Of a DNA stretch of 64,000 bases, positions 18,016 to 30,522 are shown piece by piece. Numbering within the stretch: the stretch's first letter is position 1; every line of letters starts with the position of its first letter. The stretch is from an uncultured Pelagibacteraceae bacterium. Lineage in GTDB: Bacteria; Pseudomonadota; Alphaproteobacteria; Pelagibacterales; Pelagibacteraceae. The notes beneath the pieces are model-generated. The model saw only the letters and a list, made by a program, of their open reading frames with translations. It ran no database searches and was not told the origin of the DNA. The stretch is from NCBI GenBank assembly GCA_902588925.1, contig CACIRB010000002.1, positions 19,211 through 83,210 on the forward strand, read 5' to 3'. A program made the position numbers and the translations under genes.

Positions 18016-18855
18016 TTAATTTTCGTTTATTTTAACTAGAGCCATTTTAATCACATCTGCCCAGCCTTCAGGAGATGGCTTATTTGTTGTTATTAAATTA
18101 TTTATAGGAATTTCATCTAAGGTGAATTTATCATTGAATACTAAGCATGGAAAATCACTCTTTTTTAGCATTTCTAAATCATTGTAATTATCACCTACAG
18201 CTATTGTTTTTATATTTTTATTATTTTTTTTTAAAAATCTGACAAATATTTGAAGAGCTTTAGCTTTACTAACCCTATCAGTTAAATTAATTACCCTTCC
18301 TCCTTCTTGTAAATAAAGACCTTCATTTTTAATTATCTTAGATAATTCATTTCTTTGACTTTTGGTTCCCTCAAATACAAATGGAATAGTGTATTTACGA
18401 TTTAAAGCCATTTGTAGTTTTTCATCCTCTAAACCAAAAACTAAACTTTGTTTTTTTTTATTCATTTCAGATACCCATTTGCATTTATTTTGCAGGTTTA
18501 TTGGAACTATATTTTTAAAAATATTTAAAAGATCATCCTTTTCTCTGCTAAGAATTAATTTTATAGGTAAGTTTGAATTGAATAATTCTAAGCCATTAAT
18601 AGCTGATCCGTTTTCAGAAATAAAAGGTAAGTTTGCTCTTAATTCGTAATTAAACTGTAAAATTTCTTTCTCGGTTTTACTAGTATTGGGTATTATAAAA
18701 ATTCCTTTTGATATTAGTTCTTTTAAATAGTCTTTTATTTCATCAAATTTAAACGTATCTCTATGAAGCAGAGAGCCGTCTAGGTCAGTAAATATCAAAA
18801 CTTTGATTGCTTTTTCCATTGATTGATATTTATTAAATATTTGAATAAATAACAA
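18016..18855 (-). CDS. HAD-IIB phosphatase, mannosyl/glucosyl-3-phosphoglycerate phosphatase-like
   Basis: LIFTDLDGSLLHRDTFKFD, PNTSKTEKEI, SENGSAI, AVGDNYNDLEMLK; paired with the GpgS-like gene. Confidence 0.82.
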   Translation of the reverse strand: MLFIQIFNKYQSMEKAIKVLIFTDLDGSLLHRDTFKFDEIKDYLKELISKGIFIIPNTSKTEKEILQFNYELRANLPFISENGSAINGLELFNSNLPIKLILSREKDDLLNIFKNIVPINLQNKCKWVSEMNKKKQSLVFGLEDEKLQMALNRKYTIPFVFEGTKSQRNELSKIIKNEGLYLQEGGRVINLTDRVSKAKALQIFVRFLKKNNKNIKTIAVGDNYNDLEMLKKSDFPCLVFNDKFTLDEIPINNLITTNKPSPEGWADVIKMALVKINEN

Positions 18856-19007: not shown

Positions 19008-19778
19008 ATGAGTAAGCTTCAAATTATTTCGGATAATAATAAAAAATCCTTAAATATAAAAAATATTCTATTTAAAAAAATAAAGTTCAATAACTTTAAA
19101 AAAGAAAATTTAATTATTGTCATTGGGGGAGATGGATTTATGCTTCAAACACTAAAGAGAAACAAGAATTCAAATAAAAATTTCTATGGAATTAATTCTG
19201 GTAATTATGGTTTTCTAATGAATAAATTTTCTTCTAAGGATATTATTAAAAACCTATCAAAAGCAAATGTGGTTACTATTTCACCTTTAGAAATGATAGT
19301 TAGAAATAAAAATAATCAAATTAGAAAATCTATAGCGATTAATGAGGTTTCGGTATTAAGACAGAGTAGACAAGCAGCCTCATTATCTATTAAACAAGGT
19401 TCAAGACAAATTATTAAAAAATTAGTTTCTGATGGAGTATTAGTATCAACTCCTGCTGGTAGTACAGCTTACAATCTTTCTGTTCATGGACCTATATTAA
19501 GTTTACATTCAAAAAAACTATCTATATCTCCAATAAGTGCATTTAGACCAAGAAGATGGAAGGGAAAAATTGTTAATGATAAATCAAAAATTATTATAAC
19601 AAATTTAAATCCATCTAAGAGACCCATTAGTGCGGTTGCAGATAATTTAGAAGTAAGAAATGCTAAATCAATCACTGTTAGAACTAACAATAAAATAAAG
19701 TTTAACCTTCTTTATGACAAAAATAGAGGTTTGCAAAAAAAGATTAAAATTGAGCAAATTAGAAAAGAGACCAGCTAG
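19008..19778 (+). CDS. nadK: NAD kinase
   Basis: IVIGGDGFMLQTLKRN, YGINSGNYGFLMN, NEVSVLR, GVLVSTPAGSTAYNLSVHGPIL. Confidence 0.94.
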   Translation: MSKLQIISDNNKKSLNIKNILFKKIKFNNFKKENLIIVIGGDGFMLQTLKRNKNSNKNFYGINSGNYGFLMNKFSSKDIIKNLSKANVVTISPLEMIVRNKNNQIRKSIAINEVSVLRQSRQAASLSIKQGSRQIIKKLVSDGVLVSTPAGSTAYNLSVHGPILSLHSKKLSISPISAFRPRRWKGKIVNDKSKIIITNLNPSKRPISAVADNLEVRNAKSITVRTNNKIKFNLLYDKNRGLQKKIKIEQIRKETS

Positions 19779-19782
19779 ATAA

Positions 19783-19920
19783 ATGAAAAAAATTAATCCA
19801 TCAATTTTGGTAGTAATTATTTTAGTTGGAGGTTTTTGTGCGTTTAAAATTATGTCTTTTCTTGGTTGTTATGTTCGTATTGAAAACGTAGATGAGTGTT
19901 GGAAATTAACAGCTTGGTGA
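19783..19920 (+). CDS. hypothetical 45-aa single-TM small protein
   Basis: ATG...TGA, MKKINPSILVVIILVGGFCAFKIMSFLGCYVRIENVDECWKLTAW, 4 nt after nadK; below the length cut-off of the supplied ORF track. Confidence 0.5.
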   Translation: MKKINPSILVVIILVGGFCAFKIMSFLGCYVRIENVDECWKLTAW

Positions 19921-19925
19921 TAAAT

Positions 19926-19976
19926 AGTGATGGTGCCCCCGCACGGATTCGAACCGTGGACATATTGATTACAAAT
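19926..19976 (-). repeat. duplicate 3' half of tRNA-Thr(TGT): candidate att-site remnant (copy 1)
   Basis: 51-bp block matching 24723-24773 with two mismatches (19957 T/C, 19962 A/C); covers CCA end, T arm, variable loop and anticodon loop; 5' half of a tRNA absent. Confidence 0.9.
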
Positions 19977-20112
19977 TTATAGATCCAAATTTTTTTTTCT
20001 TTCGCTACTAGATAACACAATACAACACTTTTAGTATGATGAGAGTCTACTAATTATTTTTCTACTATATATCGACTACAGATAGAATTTACTTTCTTAG
20101 ATTGATCAATAT

Positions 20113-21237
20113 TTATTTATTTTTTAATAATTTAAATATTAATTGTCTCAAATTTTGATTATTTTTATTTAAATACATTTGATTTTTAATTACTCTATAA
20201 TGTTTTTTATTCCAATTGACCTGGCTGCAATTAATTAAATTATTTAAAACTCTATCTACCTCATTGTAAGTAGGTTTTTTTATAAAAAAATATTCATATT
20301 TTTTTTTATTACCATCAGGCCATCCAAAATAATGTTTGGCATCTGTATCACTATTGTGTGGCCCCAAACATGCAATCTTTTTTTTTCTACTAATTGCTTC
20401 ATAACCCATTGTAGATGTAAAAAATAAAATATTTTCAAATTGGTCTAGTATTTTATATTTTTTTTCTCGTTGATTACTTTGATGAAAAATACAATTAGAT
20501 TTAAAAATTTTTTTATAAAAATTAATTTCAATAGATTGTTTAGGATTTTTTTTACTTCTTCTAAGTAAAATATGAAGTTTTTTCTTATTTTTAGTTAGAT
20601 ATAAATTGACTAAGTTTAGTATTTTTTTATAGCCTGCAAAATCTGCTTTACCCATACCTCCTTTCATCCCTTCATGAGTTTGAGATAAATATAAAAATTG
20701 CTTACGAAACTTTGTTTTATTAATTGGAATAAGATTATTATAAAAGTGTCCATGAGAAAGATATTTAGATTTTACAATTTTTTCATATTTTGGAATATAG
20801 TATTTATTAAATACAAAGAAATAGTCACACTTTAGATTTTTTGGCCATTTTTTTTCATTTACTTTAAACCAAGTCGCTAAACGAATTCCATTAGAAACTG
20901 AAATAAAATGGATGTTCTTGAAAAAATTTTTTAATTCATACAACTGATATCTTGCTTCATTGAAAGTAATTATAATTTTAGGCGATGTGAATTTTATGAA
21001 ATTTTTAGAGTAGGTTGAAAAAGAAAAATCTAAAAACAAAATTTGCTTTAGAAATAACCAGAAATAAATTTTTTTATTATCACGTAATTCAAGAATATTA
21101 AAATCTTTTTTGATAATTTTTTTAAAAGTTGATGCATGTATTTCATCAAAAAGAAGTATTTTATTTTTCTTTGGAAAATCAAAACGAAGTCGAATTCTTA
21201 AGAGTTGATTTATATATTTCAGAATTTTTTGATACAT
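20113..21237 (-). CDS. putative surface-carbohydrate biosynthesis protein (GT-B/transferase-like)
   Basis: 374 aa; SVSNGIRLATWF, GFxY-like LYLSQTHEGMKGGMGKADFAGYKK, FENILFFTSTMGYEAISRKKKIACLGPH; resembles Leptospira-type surface carbohydrate proteins. Confidence 0.55.
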   Translation of the reverse strand: MYQKILKYINQLLRIRLRFDFPKKNKILLFDEIHASTFKKIIKKDFNILELRDNKKIYFWLFLKQILFLDFSFSTYSKNFIKFTSPKIIITFNEARYQLYELKNFFKNIHFISVSNGIRLATWFKVNEKKWPKNLKCDYFFVFNKYYIPKYEKIVKSKYLSHGHFYNNLIPINKTKFRKQFLYLSQTHEGMKGGMGKADFAGYKKILNLVNLYLTKNKKKLHILLRRSKKNPKQSIEINFYKKIFKSNCIFHQSNQREKKYKILDQFENILFFTSTMGYEAISRKKKIACLGPHNSDTDAKHYFGWPDGNKKKYEYFFIKKPTYNEVDRVLNNLINCSQVNWNKKHYRVIKNQMYLNKNNQNLRQLIFKLLKNK

Positions 21238-21284
21238 TCAAATATCTTTTAATTTTCGTTTAATTTATATTAAGCATTGATCAA

Positions 21285-21309
21285 GGTGCTTAAATTAAGC
21301 GCCTTTTTT
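21285..21309 (+). terminator. Rho-independent-terminator-like hairpin + T6 in a divergent intergenic region
   Basis: GGTGCTT-AAATT-AAGCGCC (7 bp, one G-T) followed by TTTTTT. Confidence 0.65.
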
Positions 21310-21416
21310 CCTTTATAGAATTTAGGAATACGAATGCTTATTTATTGACACTTACATTCAAAACTTACCTTATCTTTTGTTAGATTTATTGTGACTATAA
21401 TCTATATATATTAAAA

Positions 21417-23621
21417 ATGAAAAAAAAATATTACTTATTAGGTATTCAATCGTACGCAAACCACGATTCTGGTGCAAGTATTTTAAAGATCGATGACTCT
21501 AATAATATTTTAGATTTTGTAGCAATATCAGAAGAAAGATTAATAAGAAAAAAATATCCTTATACCTTTCCCATACACTCAATAAATTACTGTATGGAGT
21601 ATTTCAATTTGAAGAAATTATCGCAAATTAATTTTATCATATCAGATTGGATACGTATAAAAAGATGGCTGAGATCAGGACCAGCATATAATTATCAATT
21701 ATTTGATTATATAAAAGAAAAGCTAAACTTTGATAAAGATAAGATTATTCAAATTGATCATCATCTTGCACACGCTGCAAGTACTTATTATTCAAGTGGG
21801 TATAAAGAATCTGCAATTTTAATTGTTGATGCAAATGGCTCAGATTGTGAAACAAATTCTTTTTTTTATGGAAAAAATAATAAAATTAGTCTTTTAGATA
21901 AAAGTAAAAATCATGGTATTGGCTCTGTTTATACTGCGATTACTAAAAATATTTTAAATCTTGGTGATAGTGGTGAAGGTAAAACGATGGGTTTAGCACC
22001 ATATGGAAAGGCTAATCCAAAAATAAAGATTAAACATTCATTAAATGGTATCCACACAAACTTTTCAGATTTTATGAGAAGAATACCTTATTCGGATGTT
22101 TTAAATCAAATAAATGAAAATTATAGACCTCAAGTAATAAAAAAAAATTATCCAAAAGCTACCAAAAAAAACATCATGAAAAAAATATTTTGCGATTGGG
22201 CATATGCAGTTCAAGATCTTACAGAAAGAGTATTTTTACATCTAGGTAAAGAACTTTACAAATTAAAAAAAGTAAAAAATATATGTTTAGCTGGTGGAGT
22301 TGCATTAAATTCAGTTGCTAATAACGTTTTGTTAAAAAAAACTAAATTTAAAAATATGTTTGTTTTTCCAGCATGTTCAGACTCTGGAATACCATTTGGA
22401 TTAGTCCTTTGGGGTTATCATAATATTCTGAAACGCAAAAAAAGAATAAAATTTAATAATGCTTATACTGGAAAAAAATACTCAAAAAAAGAATTATTAC
22501 TATTTTTGAAGAAATATAATTTTGACTTTAAAGAGACAAATCCAAAAGAAATTGCTATCCTAATATCAAAAGGTTTTGTAGTAGGAAATTTTTTTGGAAA
22601 AAGTGAATACGGTCCAAGAGCACTAGGTAATAGAAGTATTATTGCTGATGCTAGAAATCCTAAAATGAGAGATTTTATAAACAAAAAAGTAAAACATAGA
22701 GAAATTTTTAGACCTTTTGCACCCTCTATTCTTGAGGAATTTTCAAATAAATTCTTTGATATTGATAATTCACCTTTCATGTTACAGGTCGCTAAAAGTA
22801 AAAAAAGTAAACTTATACCCTCTGCTATTCACGTAGACAATACAGCGAGAGTACAAACAGTTAATAAATTTCAGAATCAAAATTACTATTCTATTATTAA
22901 AGAATTTTATAAATTAACAGGTATTCCAGTAATCTTGAATACGTCTTTCAATGATGCGGGAGAACCATTAGTTGAAACACCTCAAGATGCTATTTTATGT
23001 TTTTTAAAAACTAAAATCGATTGTTTAGTATTAGACAATATTTTACTTTTTAAAAACAAACAAAAAAAAATCAAAGAGAAAATAAGAAAACTAGACGCTA
23101 CAAGATCTCAAAAAATTAAGTTAGATGAAAAAAAATTGATTAAAAAATTTACGATCAAATATTCTGAAAATGAATTTAAAAAAAGAAAAAAGAAAGAAAA
23201 TTTAAAAGCTAAGTACCATGTTTTGAATAAACCGATAAGAAAAATTAAAAATTTTATAAAAAATTTCAATTCCCAGAGTAAACCATTATTAATTATTGGC
23301 TCAGAGGATCACACAAATATATTAAGCAAAATATTTAAATTAGATGAAAATAAAGTAGCTTTTTTAGATATAAATAAAAATGATATAATTAAGAAAAAGA
23401 AAAAAATTCATAAATTTGTAAAGATTAAAAAAATAGATTTTTCAAAATATTATGAAAATATATTTATTTCTACCTTCGAGTACAATAAAGAAATTATTAA
23501 AAAATTTAAAATTAAGAAATATTTTACTCCATATGATAATTCATCAAGAAGTATTATTGATTATTATTATATTAAGAAGTTTTCTGGTAAAACAAAATTA
23601 CATTCCAAAAGTATTTATTAA
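21417..23621 (+). CDS. carbamoyltransferase, NodU/CmcH/TobZ family, with C-terminal extension
   Basis: IDHHLAHAASTYYSSGYKESAILIVDANG, GEGKTMGLAPYG, CLAGGVALNSVANN, FGKSEYGPRALGNRSIIADARNPKMRDFINKKVKHREIFRPFAPSI, ILNTSFNDAGEPLVETPQDA; ~170-aa extra C-terminal region. Confidence 0.93.
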   Translation: MKKKYYLLGIQSYANHDSGASILKIDDSNNILDFVAISEERLIRKKYPYTFPIHSINYCMEYFNLKKLSQINFIISDWIRIKRWLRSGPAYNYQLFDYIKEKLNFDKDKIIQIDHHLAHAASTYYSSGYKESAILIVDANGSDCETNSFFYGKNNKISLLDKSKNHGIGSVYTAITKNILNLGDSGEGKTMGLAPYGKANPKIKIKHSLNGIHTNFSDFMRRIPYSDVLNQINENYRPQVIKKNYPKATKKNIMKKIFCDWAYAVQDLTERVFLHLGKELYKLKKVKNICLAGGVALNSVANNVLLKKTKFKNMFVFPACSDSGIPFGLVLWGYHNILKRKKRIKFNNAYTGKKYSKKELLLFLKKYNFDFKETNPKEIAILISKGFVVGNFFGKSEYGPRALGNRSIIADARNPKMRDFINKKVKHREIFRPFAPSILEEFSNKFFDIDNSPFMLQVAKSKKSKLIPSAIHVDNTARVQTVNKFQNQNYYSIIKEFYKLTGIPVILNTSFNDAGEPLVETPQDAILCFLKTKIDCLVLDNILLFKNKQKKIKEKIRKLDATRSQKIKLDEKKLIKKFTIKYSENEFKKRKKKENLKAKYHVLNKPIRKIKNFIKNFNSQSKPLLIIGSEDHTNILSKIFKLDENKVAFLDINKNDIIKKKKKIHKFVKIKKIDFSKYYENIFISTFEYNKEIIKKFKIKKYFTPYDNSSRSIIDYYYIKKFSGKTKLHSKSIY

Positions 23622-23638
23622 ATAAAAATATATTTTTA

Positions 23639-24526
23639 TTAATTAGCAATAGCTATTAAAGTATCATTAAGATTGTTTTTTATTAAATAGCGATCATAAT
23701 TATCTAAATCATTTTTTCTAGTTATAAGACTTTTGAAAAAAGTATGTCCTCCTGGTTTATCTTTTAACATCCAGCCTAGATGATTATTTAAATTGTGCCT
23801 CTGAATTTTAATTATCTTTATGTTTTTAAATTTTGCTTTTTTAAGAAACAATGTCAAACTTTTTGGAGTATGCCAAATTAAACTTTCTCTACAAAATGTA
23901 AATTGTTTAAAATTTCTAAGATCATATTTACTAATCAATGCATCATTTGCACAAGGTACCTCAATTATTATTTTCCCCCCTTTTTTTAAATACTTTTTAA
24001 TTTTAATTAGAGTTTCTATTTGATTAGGTAAATAGTGCAATGTATGAAAAAGAGTTACTAAATCAAACTTATGTTGAAATTTATTAATTTCAGACTGAAC
24101 TTTAATTTTAGAATTTTTTTTTTTAATAAATTCTATTGATGCTTTAGATAACTCTACACCATTCAGTTGATTGGTAATCTTGTTACAAAGAAATAAAAAC
24201 TGGCCATAACCACAACCATAATCTAGAACATTTTTATTTTTTATAAATTTCTTAAAAAGATTAAAATATCTTAAATAATCATTTAATATATTTGTTTTAT
24301 TAATAAATAATTTAGAAGTTTGTTTTGGTGTTTTTACATCAAAAATTTTTTTGTAAAAATTATCATTAACTAAATATTTTTCTAAAAAAATAAATTTATT
24401 TTTAGTATCTAATAAAACAGCCGATCTCCCATTTCTTAAATTTTTTTTTATTACTTTTAATCTATTGTTTTTTATTAAACCAACTTTTTTTAAATCATTA
24501 AAAACTGGATTATTAATTTTAATCAT
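23639..24526 (-). CDS. class I SAM-dependent methyltransferase
   Basis: NVLDYGCGYGQFLFLCNK, FDLVTLFHTLHYLPNQIETLIKIKKYLKKGGKIIIEVPC. Confidence 0.85.
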   Translation of the reverse strand: MIKINNPVFNDLKKVGLIKNNRLKVIKKNLRNGRSAVLLDTKNKFIFLEKYLVNDNFYKKIFDVKTPKQTSKLFINKTNILNDYLRYFNLFKKFIKNKNVLDYGCGYGQFLFLCNKITNQLNGVELSKASIEFIKKKNSKIKVQSEINKFQHKFDLVTLFHTLHYLPNQIETLIKIKKYLKKGGKIIIEVPCANDALISKYDLRNFKQFTFCRESLIWHTPKSLTLFLKKAKFKNIKIIKIQRHNLNNHLGWMLKDKPGGHTFFKSLITRKNDLDNYDRYLIKNNLNDTLIAIAN

Positions 24527-24722
24527 TTTGATATTGTTTATTAGGTGTTAACAATAATTTCAAGTATGTGATTACTAATCAATTGGTAAAGTTTAAATAA
24601 ACATTTGTTAACAACAATAATTTTAAAATATTTTTGATTAAGAAAATCTCACAACAATCCTACAACACATAAACTTAAATTAAATATAAATGTATTAAGA
24701 ATAATAAGTGTTGATTTAATTG

Positions 24723-24773
24723 AGTGATGGTGCCCCCGCACGGATTCGAACCGCGGACCTATTGATTACAAAT
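24723..24773 (-). repeat. tRNA-Thr 3'-half repeat (copy 2, part of the intact tRNA; candidate att site)
   Basis: Matches 19926-19976, two mismatches. Confidence 0.9.
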
Positions 24774-24803
24774 CAATTGCTCTACCAACTGAGCTACAAG
24801 GGC
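24728..24803 (-). tRNA. tRNA-Thr (TGT), CCA encoded
   Basis: Reverse complement GCCCTTG TA GCTC AGTTGGTA GAGC A ATTGA TTTGTAA TCAAT AGGTC CGCGG TTCGAAT CCGTG CGGGGGC A CCA folds as a cloverleaf. Confidence 0.95.
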
Positions 24804-24906: not shown

Positions 24907-25872
24907 TTAAAACTTGTTTAAATTTAGCCAATTTTTTTTGTAATCTTGATAAGTTTTTTCTAAACCTTTTTTTAAAGAAACTTTAGGTTTAAAACCAAAA
25001 TATTCCATTCGTACACTGTCTAACAATTTTCTTGGAGTGCCATCGGGTCTAGTAAAATCATATTCAATTTTACCTTTAAATCCTACGATTTTCTTTATAT
25101 TTTTTGCCAGTTCATTAATAGTTATCTCAATATTACTCCCAACATTAACGTGACTTGACATTGGTGTAGAAAATTTTCTAAAGGTTCTTATATCTTTATT
25201 CATTAAATGAATAGACGCTTTTGCTAAATCATCAACGTATAAAAATTCTCTTTTTGGTTTTCCACTACCCCAAATAACAACTTTTTTTGAATTATTCATT
25301 TTTGCTTTATGAAACCGATTTATCAGTCCTGGTATTACATGACTATCTTCATCATGATAATTATCACCTGGACCATAAAGGTTCGTCGGCATTATGCATC
25401 TATAATCTAAACCATATTGTCGATTATAACTTTCGCACATTTTAATTCCTGCAATTTTAGCGATCGCATATGGTTCATTTGTAGGTTCTAATTTTCCTGT
25501 CAAAAGTTTTTCTTCTTTTATGGGTTGTTTGGCCTTCTTAGGATAAATACAGCTTGATCCCAAAAACAATAATTTTTTAATACCACTTACATAAGAGCTA
25601 TGAATTATATTAGTTTGTATCATTAGATTTTCGTAAATAAAATTTGCTGGGTAATTATTATTAGCACTAATTCCTCCTACTTTAGCTGCTGCTATATACA
25701 CTTCATCTATCTTATTTTTTTTAAAAAAATTTAGAACTTTTTTTTGATCTAACAAATCAAGTTCTTTTTTTTCTTTAGTTATTAGTTCTACATTGCGCAA
25801 TTTTAAATAGCGAACTAAAGCAGATCCAACCATACCATTATGCCCTGCAATGAATATTTTGGTTTTAGACAT
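24907..25872 (-). CDS. fcl: GDP-L-fucose synthase
   Basis: [75 protein letters not shown]. Confidence 0.96.
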
Positions 25873-25895
25873 AATCTTTTCAAATATAATATTTT

Positions 25896-26957
25896 TTAAT
25901 TTTTATGATTATATGATTTACCTTTTTTTAATAAGTCGATGTCTTTTTCAACCATTTCTTTTACTAACTGTTCAAAAGAAATTTTTGGTATCCAGTTTAA
26001 TTCTTTTTTTGCTTTACTAGCATCACCTAGTAATGCTTCTACCTCTGTAGGACGAAAATATCTTGAATCAATTTTAATAATTTCTTTTCCATTATAAACT
26101 CCAACTTCATCTAAACCTGTACCTTTCCACTCAATTTTCATATCTAAATTTTTCAAAACCAACTTCACAAAGTCTCTTACAGAATACTGTTTCCCAGTAG
26201 CTATAACGAAGTCTTGTGGTTTTTTTTGTTGAAGCATTAACCATTGAACCTCAACAAAGTCTTTTGCATGACCCCAATCTCTTAATGCATCAAGATTTCC
26301 AAGATACAAGCATTCTTGAAATCCTAGTTTTATACGAGATAGTCCTCTTGTAATTTTTCTAGTAACAAAAGTTTCACCTCTTACTGGACTTTCATGATTA
26401 AATAAAATGCCATTACATGCATAAATATCGTATGCCTCTCGGTAGTTTACTGTTATCCAATAAGCATAAAGCTTCGCAACTCCGTAAGGACTTCTAGGAT
26501 AAAAAGGAGTATTTTCATTTTTTGGATTTTCTTTAGATGCTCCATATAACTCAGAAGTTGATGCTTGATAAAATTTTGTTTTTTTTTCTAATTTCAAAAT
26601 TCTAATAGCCTCTAAAATTCTAAGAGTTCCTAATGCATCTGAGTTTGCAGTATACTCAGGTTTCTCAAAAGAAACAGCAACATGACTTTGAGCTGCTAAA
26701 TTATAAATTTCATCAGGTTGAACTTCTTGAATTATTCTAATTAAAGATGTTGCATCTGTTAAATCTCCATAATGTAAAATTAATTTACGATGTTTTTCTT
26801 GTGGATCTTGATATAAATGATCAATACGGTGTGTATTTATTAAAGATGATCTTCTTTTGATACCATGAACTTCATAACCTTTTTGCAATAAAAATTCTGC
26901 TAAATAGGATCCGTCTTGACCAGTTATTCCTGTTATTAAAGCTTTACTTTTTTTCAT
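25896..26957 (-). CDS. gmd: GDP-mannose 4,6-dehydratase
   Basis: [83 protein letters not shown]. Confidence 0.97.
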
Positions 26958-27065
26958 TATTTAAAAATATTATTAAGTCGATTTTTTTATAATTAATATA
27001 ATAATCATACTATTTATTTATGTTATTGTATTATTAATTTTTTAAAAAATAGTTAAAAATTTTTA

Positions 27066-28094
27066 ATGAATAGTAATTATCAAACATCACTTGTTATAAC
27101 AACAATTAACAAGCCAAATAAAGTTATTAACAAGTACTTAGATATAACTAAAAAAAACAAAATTAACTATATAATCATTGGTGATAAAAAAACTCCAAAC
27201 TATAAAAATAAATATCCGTACTTTGATTTAAAAAAACAAAAAAAATTTAATTTTAAAATTTTTAATTTATTACCTTACAATACGTATTCTAGAAAAAATC
27301 TTGGTTATCTTATTGCAATGAAAAATAAATCAAAAATTATTATAGAGACTGATGACGATAATTTACCAAAAAAAAATTTTTTCAATAATTTAAAAATTAA
27401 TAAAACTCTTAAAGAGTTTAGTGGACCTAGATGGATAAACATACTAGAAATTTTTAAAACAAATAACAAAATTATTTGGCCGAGAGGTTTTCCATTAAAT
27501 TTATTAAATAAAAAAAATAAATATAAAGTTAAAAAAAGAAATGTTTTTTCTCCTATTCAGCAAAGAATGTGTGATGGTAATCCTGATGTTGATGCTATTT
27601 TTAGATTAACTAAAAAATTTAGAAACCATTATTTTAAGAAAATTGATATCGCAGTAAATAATAAATCAATCTCTCCTTTTAATAGTCAAAACACAGTCTG
27701 GCATGAAATTGCCTTTCCCCTAATGTATTTGCCATCTTATTGCACCATGAGATCTACCGATATATGGAGAGGATTAATTGCAGTAAGGATTTTAGAAAAT
27801 TATAATTGGAATTTAACTTTTTTAAAATCAACAGTTATACAAGAAAGAAACCCCCATGATTTGATGGATGATTTTATTCAAGAAATACCAGTTTATAAAA
27901 ATAATGTTGAACTTTGTAATGTGATTAAAAAAGTAAATTTAAGCAATAGATATAAAGATATACTCTTAAATATTTATAAGTGTTATGATCAACTAGTTAA
28001 AAAAAAAATTTTAAATAAAAAAGAGTTACCACTATTAAAAAGGTGGTTACTAGATATAAATAAAATTTATCCAAATTTAAATAAATATAAATAG
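27066..28094 (+). CDS. STELLO-like glycosyltransferase (DUF288-like)
   Basis: LVITTINKPNKVINKYLDI, LLPYNTYSRKNLGYLIAMKNKSKIIIETDDDNLPKKNFF, GPRWINILEIF. Confidence 0.7.
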   Translation: MNSNYQTSLVITTINKPNKVINKYLDITKKNKINYIIIGDKKTPNYKNKYPYFDLKKQKKFNFKIFNLLPYNTYSRKNLGYLIAMKNKSKIIIETDDDNLPKKNFFNNLKINKTLKEFSGPRWINILEIFKTNNKIIWPRGFPLNLLNKKNKYKVKKRNVFSPIQQRMCDGNPDVDAIFRLTKKFRNHYFKKIDIAVNNKSISPFNSQNTVWHEIAFPLMYLPSYCTMRSTDIWRGLIAVRILENYNWNLTFLKSTVIQERNPHDLMDDFIQEIPVYKNNVELCNVIKKVNLSNRYKDILLNIYKCYDQLVKKKILNKKELPLLKRWLLDINKIYPNLNKYK

Positions 28095-28103
28095 TAAATT
28101 AGA

Positions 28104-28820
28104 ATGAAAACAAATATTGCTATATTTACTCCAATGGCTAATGAAGAAAAAAATGCAAAAAAATTTATTTTAAAAATTTTAAAATATAGAAAGTATTTTA
28201 ATAAATTCAGATATTTTATTATATTAGATAAAGCATCAACAGATAATACTTATAAAATTGTTAAAGAATTAGAAAATAAGCATAAACCATTAAAAGTAAT
28301 ATGGTCACCAAAAAACAAAACTGTAGTTGATGCTTATGTAGAAGGGTATAAAAATTGTTTAAAAACTGATTATGAGTGGATACTAGAAATAGATGCTGGA
28401 GGAAGTCATAACCCAAAAAATATATTAAATTTTATCAAATTTATTAACAATGATTATGATTGTATTTATGGGAGTAGATTTTGTAAAAATGGAAAAATGT
28501 TAAATTCTAATTATATAAGAGATCTTTTTAGCAAAGGTGGATCTTTATTGACAAAATTTTTTTTTAATATCAATTTGTTGGATACTACTAGCGGCTATCA
28601 AATGTTTAACAAAAATGTTCTCAAAAAAATTATTAATAAGAAGTTATTATCAAGAAATAGATTTTTTCAGACTGAAATTAAAATCTATACTCGAAAACTG
28701 AATATTAAAGAAGTGCCTATCCAGTATGTTTGTCAAACTCATACTATGAATTTGTATGCAATTTTTGAATCAATTTATTTGTTACTTAAAATAAGATTAT
28801 TAAATAAAAATCACATATAG
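28104..28820 (+). CDS. GT2 family glycosyltransferase (dolichyl/polyprenyl-phosphate-sugar transferase-like)
   Basis: IFTPMANEEKNAKKFI, LDKASTDNTYKIVKEL, WILEIDAGGSHNPKNI, YGSRF, DTTSGYQMFNKNVL. Confidence 0.85.
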   Translation: MKTNIAIFTPMANEEKNAKKFILKILKYRKYFNKFRYFIILDKASTDNTYKIVKELENKHKPLKVIWSPKNKTVVDAYVEGYKNCLKTDYEWILEIDAGGSHNPKNILNFIKFINNDYDCIYGSRFCKNGKMLNSNYIRDLFSKGGSLLTKFFFNINLLDTTSGYQMFNKNVLKKIINKKLLSRNRFFQTEIKIYTRKLNIKEVPIQYVCQTHTMNLYAIFESIYLLLKIRLLNKNHI

Positions 28821-28833
28821 ATTATTTTATAAT

Positions 28834-30522
28834 TCATAGTCCTTTACAAGTTTTTTCATTCTCTAAATAGGTTTTTGTTTTTACTAAGTAAAAATAAGTA
28901 ATAAATTCTTCATTACTATCTATCATGTTATACTCAGATATTTCTTTAATACATCTTTCCAGTGAAATATTTTCTAAATTCGTTTTAAATTTTCTAGAAC
29001 GATGAATTTTAGAAGGCTGATTAATGAGAATATATTCAATTTTATTTTTTAATAAAAATTTTTTCTCAAATTCATTTAAAGCATTTTCTAAAGATTGATT
29101 ATCATGAGCAAATTGCTTGTGTATTTTTTTTCTCTCAAAAACATAGTTAGGTGTGGCTACCATACCTTTTCTATGATAAGTTGGGATTTTACTAAAGAAA
29201 GCAAAATTTCCATCAGTACTATCAAATACTTTCGTTGATTTATCAAATTTTTTTTCATCAAGCATTTCAGCAAACTTCATAACTGCATAAGGTTCTTTTT
29301 TTTTATAATCGATATTTCCATAAGGTGCGTTGTGATTATATTCAATATTTTTACGTATATATATTGAATTATAAAAAATCAGTGGAATAGTAATAATAAT
29401 AAGAATGTAAAAAAAAGTTTTCTTAAAAATGAAGTTTCTAAAAAATGTTTTTTTTAAAAAAAATTTTAGATAATATAAAAATAATGAAATTGATAATATT
29501 GCAGCATTTAGATGTACAACGAAATACCATCTTCCCACAGATCCAATTTTAGTAAATAAAATTTGATATGAAGTATGTAAAAATATACCAATTAAAAGTA
29601 GCCACACAATATTTAGATAACTTTTTACTTTAAATGAAATATTTTCTTTTTTAATAAATTTAGACAATAAAGTGCAACTAATTGCGCATATTAAAGTTAC
29701 GATTAGAGCCAATATCCCATATTTTATTTGACGTGTTAAGAGGGTTGATAGGACTATTTCTTTATTAATATTTGGAAAATTTGATTTTATAACACCAGAA
29801 AGCGGTACTGGAGATCCAGTTATATAATAAATTAAGACCACATATCCGCCAACCATTAAAATTGGAGGTAAAGTTAATGCTAATGCTTCTTTTATTTTTT
29901 TTTGAACCAATGTACTTATTATTAAAAAACCATGCAATGGTGAAATTAATAAAACTAAATCTAAACGTGACAAAGCTATTAAAGATGAGATCATTCCAAT
30001 ACTAAATGCAATTAGAATATTTATTTTATCTTTTATTATAAATTTATAGATGACATAATAAATGTAGCCTAGAAATAGAACAACTGACAAAGCAGTTTCC
30101 ATATACCAAAAAAAATATTTTGTAGCTAAAACTGCAAACAAAAATGTAGAAATAATCTGTATAAATCTATCATCATATATTCTACTAATTTTATAAAAGA
30201 ACCATATTGAAATTATAAAAAAAATAAAAAGAAATATGGATAATATATAAACAATTATTGCCAGGTTCTCAGTTATTGAAAAACTAATTGCTACAAATAC
30301 AAGCCACAGTGGATGAAATCCATTAGAGGGATATAAACCGTTCCAAGAAAAAAATCTCAGGTCAGATGCTTCACGACCATATACAAAATAATAAAAAGTA
30401 TCACCTGGGGTTCTAGATAAAGTATAAATAGGTGGTTCAAGAAAAGAATATAGAATATAACTAACTAGAAAAAACAATACTATTATAAATAAATAAACTT
30501 TTTCTAATTTGTGGTCTATCAT
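28834..30522 (-). CDS. multi-TM glycosyltransferase-like (GT39/PMT-like) membrane protein
   Basis: 562 aa, many hydrophobic segments, RTPGDTFYYFVYGREAS...GLYPSNGFHPLWLVFVA, soluble C-terminal region. Confidence 0.65.
   Translation of the reverse strand: MIDHKLEKVYLFIIVLFFLVSYILYSFLEPPIYTLSRTPGDTFYYFVYGREASDLRFFSWNGLYPSNGFHPLWLVFVAISFSITENLAIIVYILSIFLFIFFIISIWFFYKISRIYDDRFIQIISTFLFAVLATKYFFWYMETALSVVLFLGYIYYVIYKFIIKDKINILIAFSIGMISSLIALSRLDLVLLISPLHGFLIISTLVQKKIKEALALTLPPILMVGGYVVLIYYITGSPVPLSGVIKSNFPNINKEIVLSTLLTRQIKYGILALIVTLICAISCTLLSKFIKKENISFKVKSYLNIVWLLLIGIFLHTSYQILFTKIGSVGRWYFVVHLNAAILSISLFLYYLKFFLKKTFFRNFIFKKTFFYILIIITIPLIFYNSIYIRKNIEYNHNAPYGNIDYKKKEPYAVMKFAEMLDEKKFDKSTKVFDSTDGNFAFFSKIPTYHRKGMVATPNYVFERKKIHKQFAHDNQSLENALNEFEKKFLLKNKIEYILINQPSKIHRSRKFKTNLENISLERCIKEISEYNMIDSNEEFITYFYLVKTKTYLENEKTCKGL

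Follow-up and report, generated by a model that had tools for sequence, protein, structure and literature searches.

Three genes at positions 20113-24526 of the window (the whole stretch of 64,000 nucleotides (nt) analyzed here, G000:C2:19211-83210, from a Pelagibacteraceae (SAR11) single-cell genome with an assembly of 852 kb, 62% complete) are probably the leftover cargo of an additive island at the tRNA-Thr(UGU) gene, the cassettes of which lack an integrase and would be mobilized in trans by the integrases of phage satellites or phages. These genes, the trio, lie at the tRNA in the following arrangement (att, attachment site; aa, amino acids; SAM, S-adenosylmethionine):

19008-19778, plus strand: NAD kinase gene (NADK; Pfam NAD_kinase_C), the conserved neighbor, abutting tRNA-Thr at the empty sites of 11 relatives
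19926-19985, minus strand: att copy 1, displaced 3′ part of tRNA-Thr, 90% identical to 24723-24782 (96% over the first 51 nt)
19986-20112, no strand: class C attachment arm at the distal end, its repeats of the GACTACA type, assigned by alignment to G039 and AG-898-C07
20113-21237, minus strand: LA_1612-family (TIGR04441) protein, putative GT-B glycosyltransferase, 374 aa (159.7 bits, cut-off 150)
21417-23621, plus strand: predicted NodU/TobZ-type O-carbamoyltransferase, 734 aa (Carbam_trans_N and Carbam_trans_C)
23639-24526, minus strand: class I SAM-dependent methyltransferase, 295 aa (Methyltransf_23, E 3.4e-21)
24565-24590, minus strand: att copy 2, degenerate tRNA-Thr fragment at the start of the leader alignment
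24565-24722, no strand: putative class A cassette emptied of cargo, the trailer following immediately on the leader
24728-24803, minus strand: intact tRNA-Thr(UGU), the integration target (ARAGORN)
24907-30522: glycan genes 5′ of tRNA-Thr, by family matches (GDP-fucose synthase, gmd, a STELLO-like glycosyltransferase, a GT2 glycosyltransferase and a putative membrane glycosyltransferase)

An earlier note, written from the sequence of the window, had described the three reading frames as a surface-carbohydrate protein, a NodU/CmcH carbamoyltransferase and a SAM methyltransferase within a bracketed element, and in this it was borne out. The bracket is a 60-nt direct repeat (19926-19985 and 24723-24782, 4797 nt apart) corresponding to the 3′ part of tRNA-Thr(UGU). 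The arm next to its distal copy (19986-20112) has its best alignment with the distal arm of the P4-like satellite present at this site in genome G039 (score 73, next best 35). It also aligns end to end with AG-898-C07, the closest of the Pelagibacteraceae single-cell genomes, proteins of which are 98-100% identical to the glucosyl-3-phosphoglycerate synthase encoded near the trio, a relatedness that would place the host in SAR11; AG-898-C07 has the class C arm of the window, but other genes behind it, including a helicase matching defence models. On the side of the tRNA, 24565-24722 is, judged by its alignments, a class A cassette that has lost its cargo (leader score 132 versus a shuffled maximum of 60, trailer 97 versus 65), and it was independently recovered by a leader query. 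The boundaries of the trio are thus placed at 19926 and about 24590, the cassette remnant then preceding the tRNA. While a class A cassette has both arms, with matching 11-bp repeats around the cargo, the trio has a distal class C arm and no matching trailer; it sits between two differing remnants and therefore lacks the matched ends of an independent cassette. No integrase was found in its att-bounded unit, and the sole PF00589 match of the incomplete genome is a Xer-like gene of 325 aa on another contig. One Xer-like recombinase (about 325 aa) was found by the same search in most genomes of the genus, and mostly two strong ones in the sister family.

To account for this arrangement, we propose that phage-satellite tyrosine integrases would recombine a core that covers the tRNA from its anticodon stem to its 3′ end, and that each insertion would restore tRNA-Thr and leave a 3′ copy behind. 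The trio, bracketed distally by what would be the arm of a class C (P4-like satellite) element and beside the tRNA by the presumed emptied class A cassette, would be the cargo remaining in a decayed, composite island, not an independent element; it may have arrived as satellite cargo or by a later insertion.

That tRNA-Thr is a site of repeated insertion was seen at the 55 tRNA-Thr loci inspected: 34 have at least one partial tRNA copy, 11 are empty, with the end of NADK 3-156 nt from tRNA-Thr, and the remaining 10 contain insertions of another kind or have no visible NADK. Because the loci were chosen in part for partial copies already listed, 34 of 55 is not an estimate of prevalence. The partial copies, mostly 48-59 nt long, cover the tRNA from its anticodon stem onward and run a few nucleotides past its 3′ end; up to six modules stand in tandem (in G106, five successive partial copies are clear and a sixth is weak), and contigs from named single amplified genomes show this pattern too. 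The chromosomal order in relatives is tRNA-Leu, NADK, tRNA-Thr (minus strand), rlmB, tRNA-Tyr, tRNA-Gly, tuf, tRNA-Trp. The window thus has the features of an additive island, a tRNA 3′ repeat at the far border and a restored tRNA, with empty sites in relatives. The 5′ side of tRNA-Thr is variable, too: its distance to rlmB is ∼110 nt or less in most relatives, whereas the glycan genes at 24907-30522 are inserted there in the window. Two further observations concern the locus. A small conserved reading frame of ∼45 aa (MKKINPSILVVIILVGGFCAFKIMSFLGCY...) follows NADK at 19784-19921 of the window and likewise in G070, G041, G082 and AG-898-C07. At locus L098 (G073), the 5′ part of tRNA-Thr is repeated over 40 nt (18605-18644) on the opposite side of the gene, which suggests an insertion with reversed polarity.

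The modules smaller than 4 kb (class A; typically 0.7-4 kb) share a common plan. In the leader, the tRNA core is followed by a spacer resembling AAATAAACATTTGTTA-CAAC-ATAAT and, some 60 nt from the core, by a pair of 11-bp direct repeats. An AT-rich box comes next, and then the start codon, mostly at a distance of 92-96 nt from the core. At the far end, two to three or more 11-bp repeats lie about 70-100 nt before the next core, so that tandem repeats occur at similar offsets in both arms. In all but 2 of the 45 modules (43), the first reading frame is oriented away from the leader; of the 96 reading frames in total, 91 are on this strand and 5 on the other. Repeat types differ from module to module (GCAACAAT, GTCACACT, CGACACAC, CCGCA), but leader and trailer agree within a module: the mean best 17-mer identity was 14.05 within versus 11.84 between modules, and none of 10,000 permutations reached the observed sum (562; permuted mean 476, standard deviation 9.3), although some modules match less well and ends would be wrongly paired wherever an att copy went undetected. 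Such a pattern is in keeping with arm-type sites of tyrosine integrases, for which the repeats are candidates.

Cassettes recur at different array positions and in genomes the flanks of which are far more diverged, which shows transfer between diverged genomes. Between G114 and G094, a cassette is 98.7% identical versus 80.8% for core DNA (over a core comparison of 677 nt only); the corresponding values are 99.1% (over 333 nt) versus 86.7% for G106 and G029, and 93.1% (over 2683 nt) versus 77.0% for G073 and G054. The leader query matched 8 of 121 genomes, always in the tRNA-Thr region, the copy in G064 lying beyond NADK. The cargo is varied. A type IV pilin N-terminal motif is present in 18 of the 94 module proteins, other domains among them being MrcB_N, DUF4268, Mrr_cat, DpnI, trypsin-like, epimerase and autotransporter; several proteins have hits to PADLOC models, both of methyl-directed restriction enzymes and of candidate defence genes, and a 6-kb module in G016 encodes a MmeI-type restriction-modification enzyme, a helicase and a T5orf172 protein. 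In many cassettes, among them those of L074, L081 and L164, the encoded type IV pilins combine near-identical N-termini (GFTLIELLVVVAIIGILAAVGVVAY) with divergent C-terminal parts.

The link to satellites comes from elements that have an integrase at the same position where the cassettes have cargo. The viral contig L145 (8.9 kb) contains, in this order, trailer repeats, the tRNA-Thr core, leader repeats and a PF00589 integrase gene; genes for a small terminase and an AAA_25 ATPase are present on it as well. In G327, NADK is followed by the core, an arm and an integrase 73% identical to that of L145; in both, the integrase gene comes first, at 103-104 nt from the core. In G452, core and arm are followed by an N-terminal integrase remnant of 78 aa and then by cargo (by sequence reading a peroxiredoxin-like gene, a methyltransferase-like gene and a MORN-like protein); the module closes with trailer repeats that match, followed by the tRNA. 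The satellite in G039 is a different, P4-like one, with an Arm-DNA-bind_3 integrase and a DUF5906 protein; it has both the integrase and the primase of such satellites, whereas the window keeps the arm alone. The cassettes appear to keep both attachment arms, with cargo where satellites have the integrase gene, and should therefore move only if a satellite or phage supplies a matching integrase. In short, they look like integrase-less satellite derivatives, the arms of which would be bound by an integrase acting in trans. Integrases of the L145 type are present in 23 of 399 genomes of the genus, with more than 60% identity in only three; four of them are 33-58% identical over residues 3-14 versus 70-80% over residues 15-68, the former being the most divergent stretch and the one in which arm recognition would be expected.

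Beyond these cases, PF00589 searches of most array genomes revealed no other integrase within tRNA-Thr modules: those of G072, G120 and G028 lie outside, and related integrases at 30-37% identity are mostly located at tRNA-Met or elsewhere. At L162 (G332), an L145-type arm and integrase lie beside a tRNA fragment that appears to fit a nearby tRNA-Arg, and at L166, L167, L169, L171 and L173 related integrases lie beside tRNA-Met in several genomes; similar cassette systems may therefore exist at other tRNAs. Matches of tRNA-Thr in cultured phages were discarded, the best ones being mostly phage tRNA genes and not att sites, as were two core matches without arms, L144 (a phage contig with tRNA genes) and L146 (an apparently unrelated high-GC phage contig with a tRNA end).

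Several points weigh against the explanation proposed above. Only one attP-bearing viral contig was found in IMG/VR, and neither excision nor a circular form nor integrase binding was observed. The spacers of cassette leaders differ from those of satellite leaders, so that the cassettes may be an old separate lineage. The trio itself departs from the usual plan in that its first gene is on the minus strand and a matching trailer is missing, and the relatives are not independent samples, their single-cell assemblies being incomplete. An alternative explanation needs no integrase: a transcriptional regulator common to the modules would use the repeats as its operators, and homologous recombination through tRNA-fragment repeats and flanking core genes would swap the modules. 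In its favor, a promoter-like stretch immediately upstream of the start codon overlaps with the leader repeats, tandem copies of a tRNA lend themselves well to homologous exchange, and nearly all modules are without an integrase. However, operators would account poorly for repeats at both ends that match within a module, for satellites placing the integrase behind an arm of the same kind, and for one module occurring at different array positions beside diverged core DNA, which is why we consider this explanation unlikely. The earlier note had instead seen in the trio a self-contained module and the whole cargo of a mobile element, that is, a unit moving and functioning on its own. Although att copies bracket the three genes and their theme, glycans, is coherent, this notion is largely refuted and has very little left to commend it: there is no integrase, the ends belong to different elements of two different classes, further glycan genes (for GDP-fucose and glycosyltransferases) lie outside the brackets across the tRNA, and none of about 200 relatives was found to have all three genes together. 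Leftover cargo in a composite additive island remains the explanation that we favor.

As to what the trio may do, the proteins themselves point toward sugars. The 374-aa protein passes the curated threshold of TIGR04441, the LA_1612 O-antigen family (listed above), and its AlphaFold model, a prediction that the earlier note had proposed, has a GT-B-like fold (mean confidence score, pLDDT, 80.6), with PseG, a polysialyltransferase and other GT-B enzymes as best Foldseek matches at modest TM-scores (about 0.4-0.5). The 734-aa protein exceeds the Pfam cut-offs for Carbam_trans_N (118.1 bits, E 7.5e-34) and Carbam_trans_C (212.8 bits, E 3.1e-63), aligns over residues 16-546 to TobZ (223.8 bits) and keeps the metal-binding and active-site motifs HHLAH, GGVALN, EYGPRALGNR and NTSFN, both in the alignment of homologues and against TobZ. 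It thus shares both domains and the motifs with the NodU/CmcH/TobZ O-carbamoyltransferases, but differs from them by a C-terminal extension of its last ∼180 residues, which among the aligned homologues only that of G061 has in common and which gave no convincing Pfam match; a pattern search of genome contigs and viral contigs found no close homologue of the carbamoyltransferase. For the 295-aa methyltransferase, the nearest solved structure by sequence is of the UbiG type, a weak match. PADLOC matched this protein alone of the three (mad2, E 8e-13), which was not taken as a sign of defence because the remainder of that system is absent. The genes were said to be divergently transcribed, which is true for the first and second, the second and third being convergent.

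Genes of the LA_1612 family and of the NodU type co-occur in glycan clusters at three of the other loci inspected (adjacent in G105, 3 kb apart in G138 and 20 kb apart in G047), whereas the methyltransferase co-locates with the homologues of neither at the relatives' loci inspected. A 61%-identical paralogue of the LA_1612-family gene in the same genome (L093, G000:C5:14631-15767) lies in a NeuB/NeuA-type nonulosonate cluster, the genes of which were named by sequence reading and not by family search. The glycan genes at 24907-30522 are probably linked to the trio in function, yet stand outside the att-bounded unit. In rhizobia, carbamoylation and methylation decorate fucosylated Nod factors. 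Given this precedent and the GDP-fucose and glycosyltransferase genes across the tRNA, a surface glycan with O-carbamoyl and methyl groups on its sugars is the likely product, and changed phage receptors are a reasonable, putative consequence. Decoration of a cell-surface glycan, as suggested in the earlier note, is therefore a plausible role of the cargo, if not of a self-contained module. The nearest solved structures are antibiotic carbamoyltransferases, so carbamoyltransferase and methyltransferase might instead tailor a soluble small molecule, as do TobZ, GdmN and NovN. This appears quite improbable, because no biosynthetic cluster is nearby, the SAR11 homologues sit in glycan clusters, and genes for nucleotide sugars and glycosyltransferases adjoin the trio.

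Cis-mobilizable elements (CIMEs) are att-flanked, have no recombinase, are stacked by accretion and derive from conjugative elements. The cassettes share the att flanks, the lack of a recombinase and the accretion, but appear to be satellite-derived and are very small and numerous; the unit in the window is likewise att-flanked and recombinase-free, with apparent kinship to satellites. Of the features of phage satellites (phage-inducible chromosomal islands and P4-like elements; PMC11389934), G039 and L145 have the integrase, a P4-type primase-like protein or a small terminase, and tRNA attachment, and their arms are the same as those of the cassettes; the cassettes keep the arms only, with cargo replacing the integrase and all other satellite genes. 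Integron cassettes and CALIN arrays (clusters of attC sites lacking integron-integrases; PMC11389934) likewise consist of small cassettes in arrays, and the enzyme that moves them is also encoded at another place, but at tRNA-Thr no IntI was found, the core is a tRNA fragment, and most cassettes carry their own arm and a probable promoter. As the recombination cores are 3′ fragments of tRNA-Thr, an integron was dismissed as an explanation of the unit, which has no integrase; attC structures were not searched for. Additive flexible islands at tRNAs, stacked cassettes marked by tRNA fragments, are known from Actinomarinales (PMC7771536), Methylophilaceae (PMC10872708) and Alteromonas (PMC4119200). 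As at tRNA-Thr, cassettes are added at a tRNA in a conserved chromosomal site with direct repeats of its 3′ end; conserved arms, a fixed cargo position and a link to satellite integrases, all three present here, are not described in the passages of these papers that were consulted. According to PMC10872708, tycheposons are also tRNA-bordered cargo islands in streamlined plankton, but carry a tyrosine recombinase, which the unit in the window and nearly all cassettes lack, most cassettes being smaller as well. Of the hypervariable regions reported for SAR11, one is tRNA-flanked and without attC (PMC2217521). In the literature searched, no paper joined SAR11, tRNA-Thr and a genomic island, and no description of matched, diversified attachment arms with cargo in the integrase position was found. 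Islands of this additive kind being known, the matched-arm design of the cassettes is the new part, provisionally so because the search missed many subscription papers.

Taken further, the data may reflect a SAR11 cassette system at tRNA-Thr, in which integrase-less units of 0.7-4 kb, with a complete attP, arm repeats of many specificities and a first gene in the position of the satellite integrase, would be captured, shuffled and spread by the integrases of passing satellites and would bring in chiefly pilins, restriction enzymes and other genes for the surface or for defence; we put this forward tentatively, at somewhat less than an even chance. If true, the system would be the functional equivalent of an integron with phage attachment sites as its basis, and it would explain why glycan, pilin and restriction genes pile up at a single tRNA. 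With arms that are recognizable, it could then be predicted from sequence which satellite integrase moves which cassette, and excised circles could be searched for in ocean reads.

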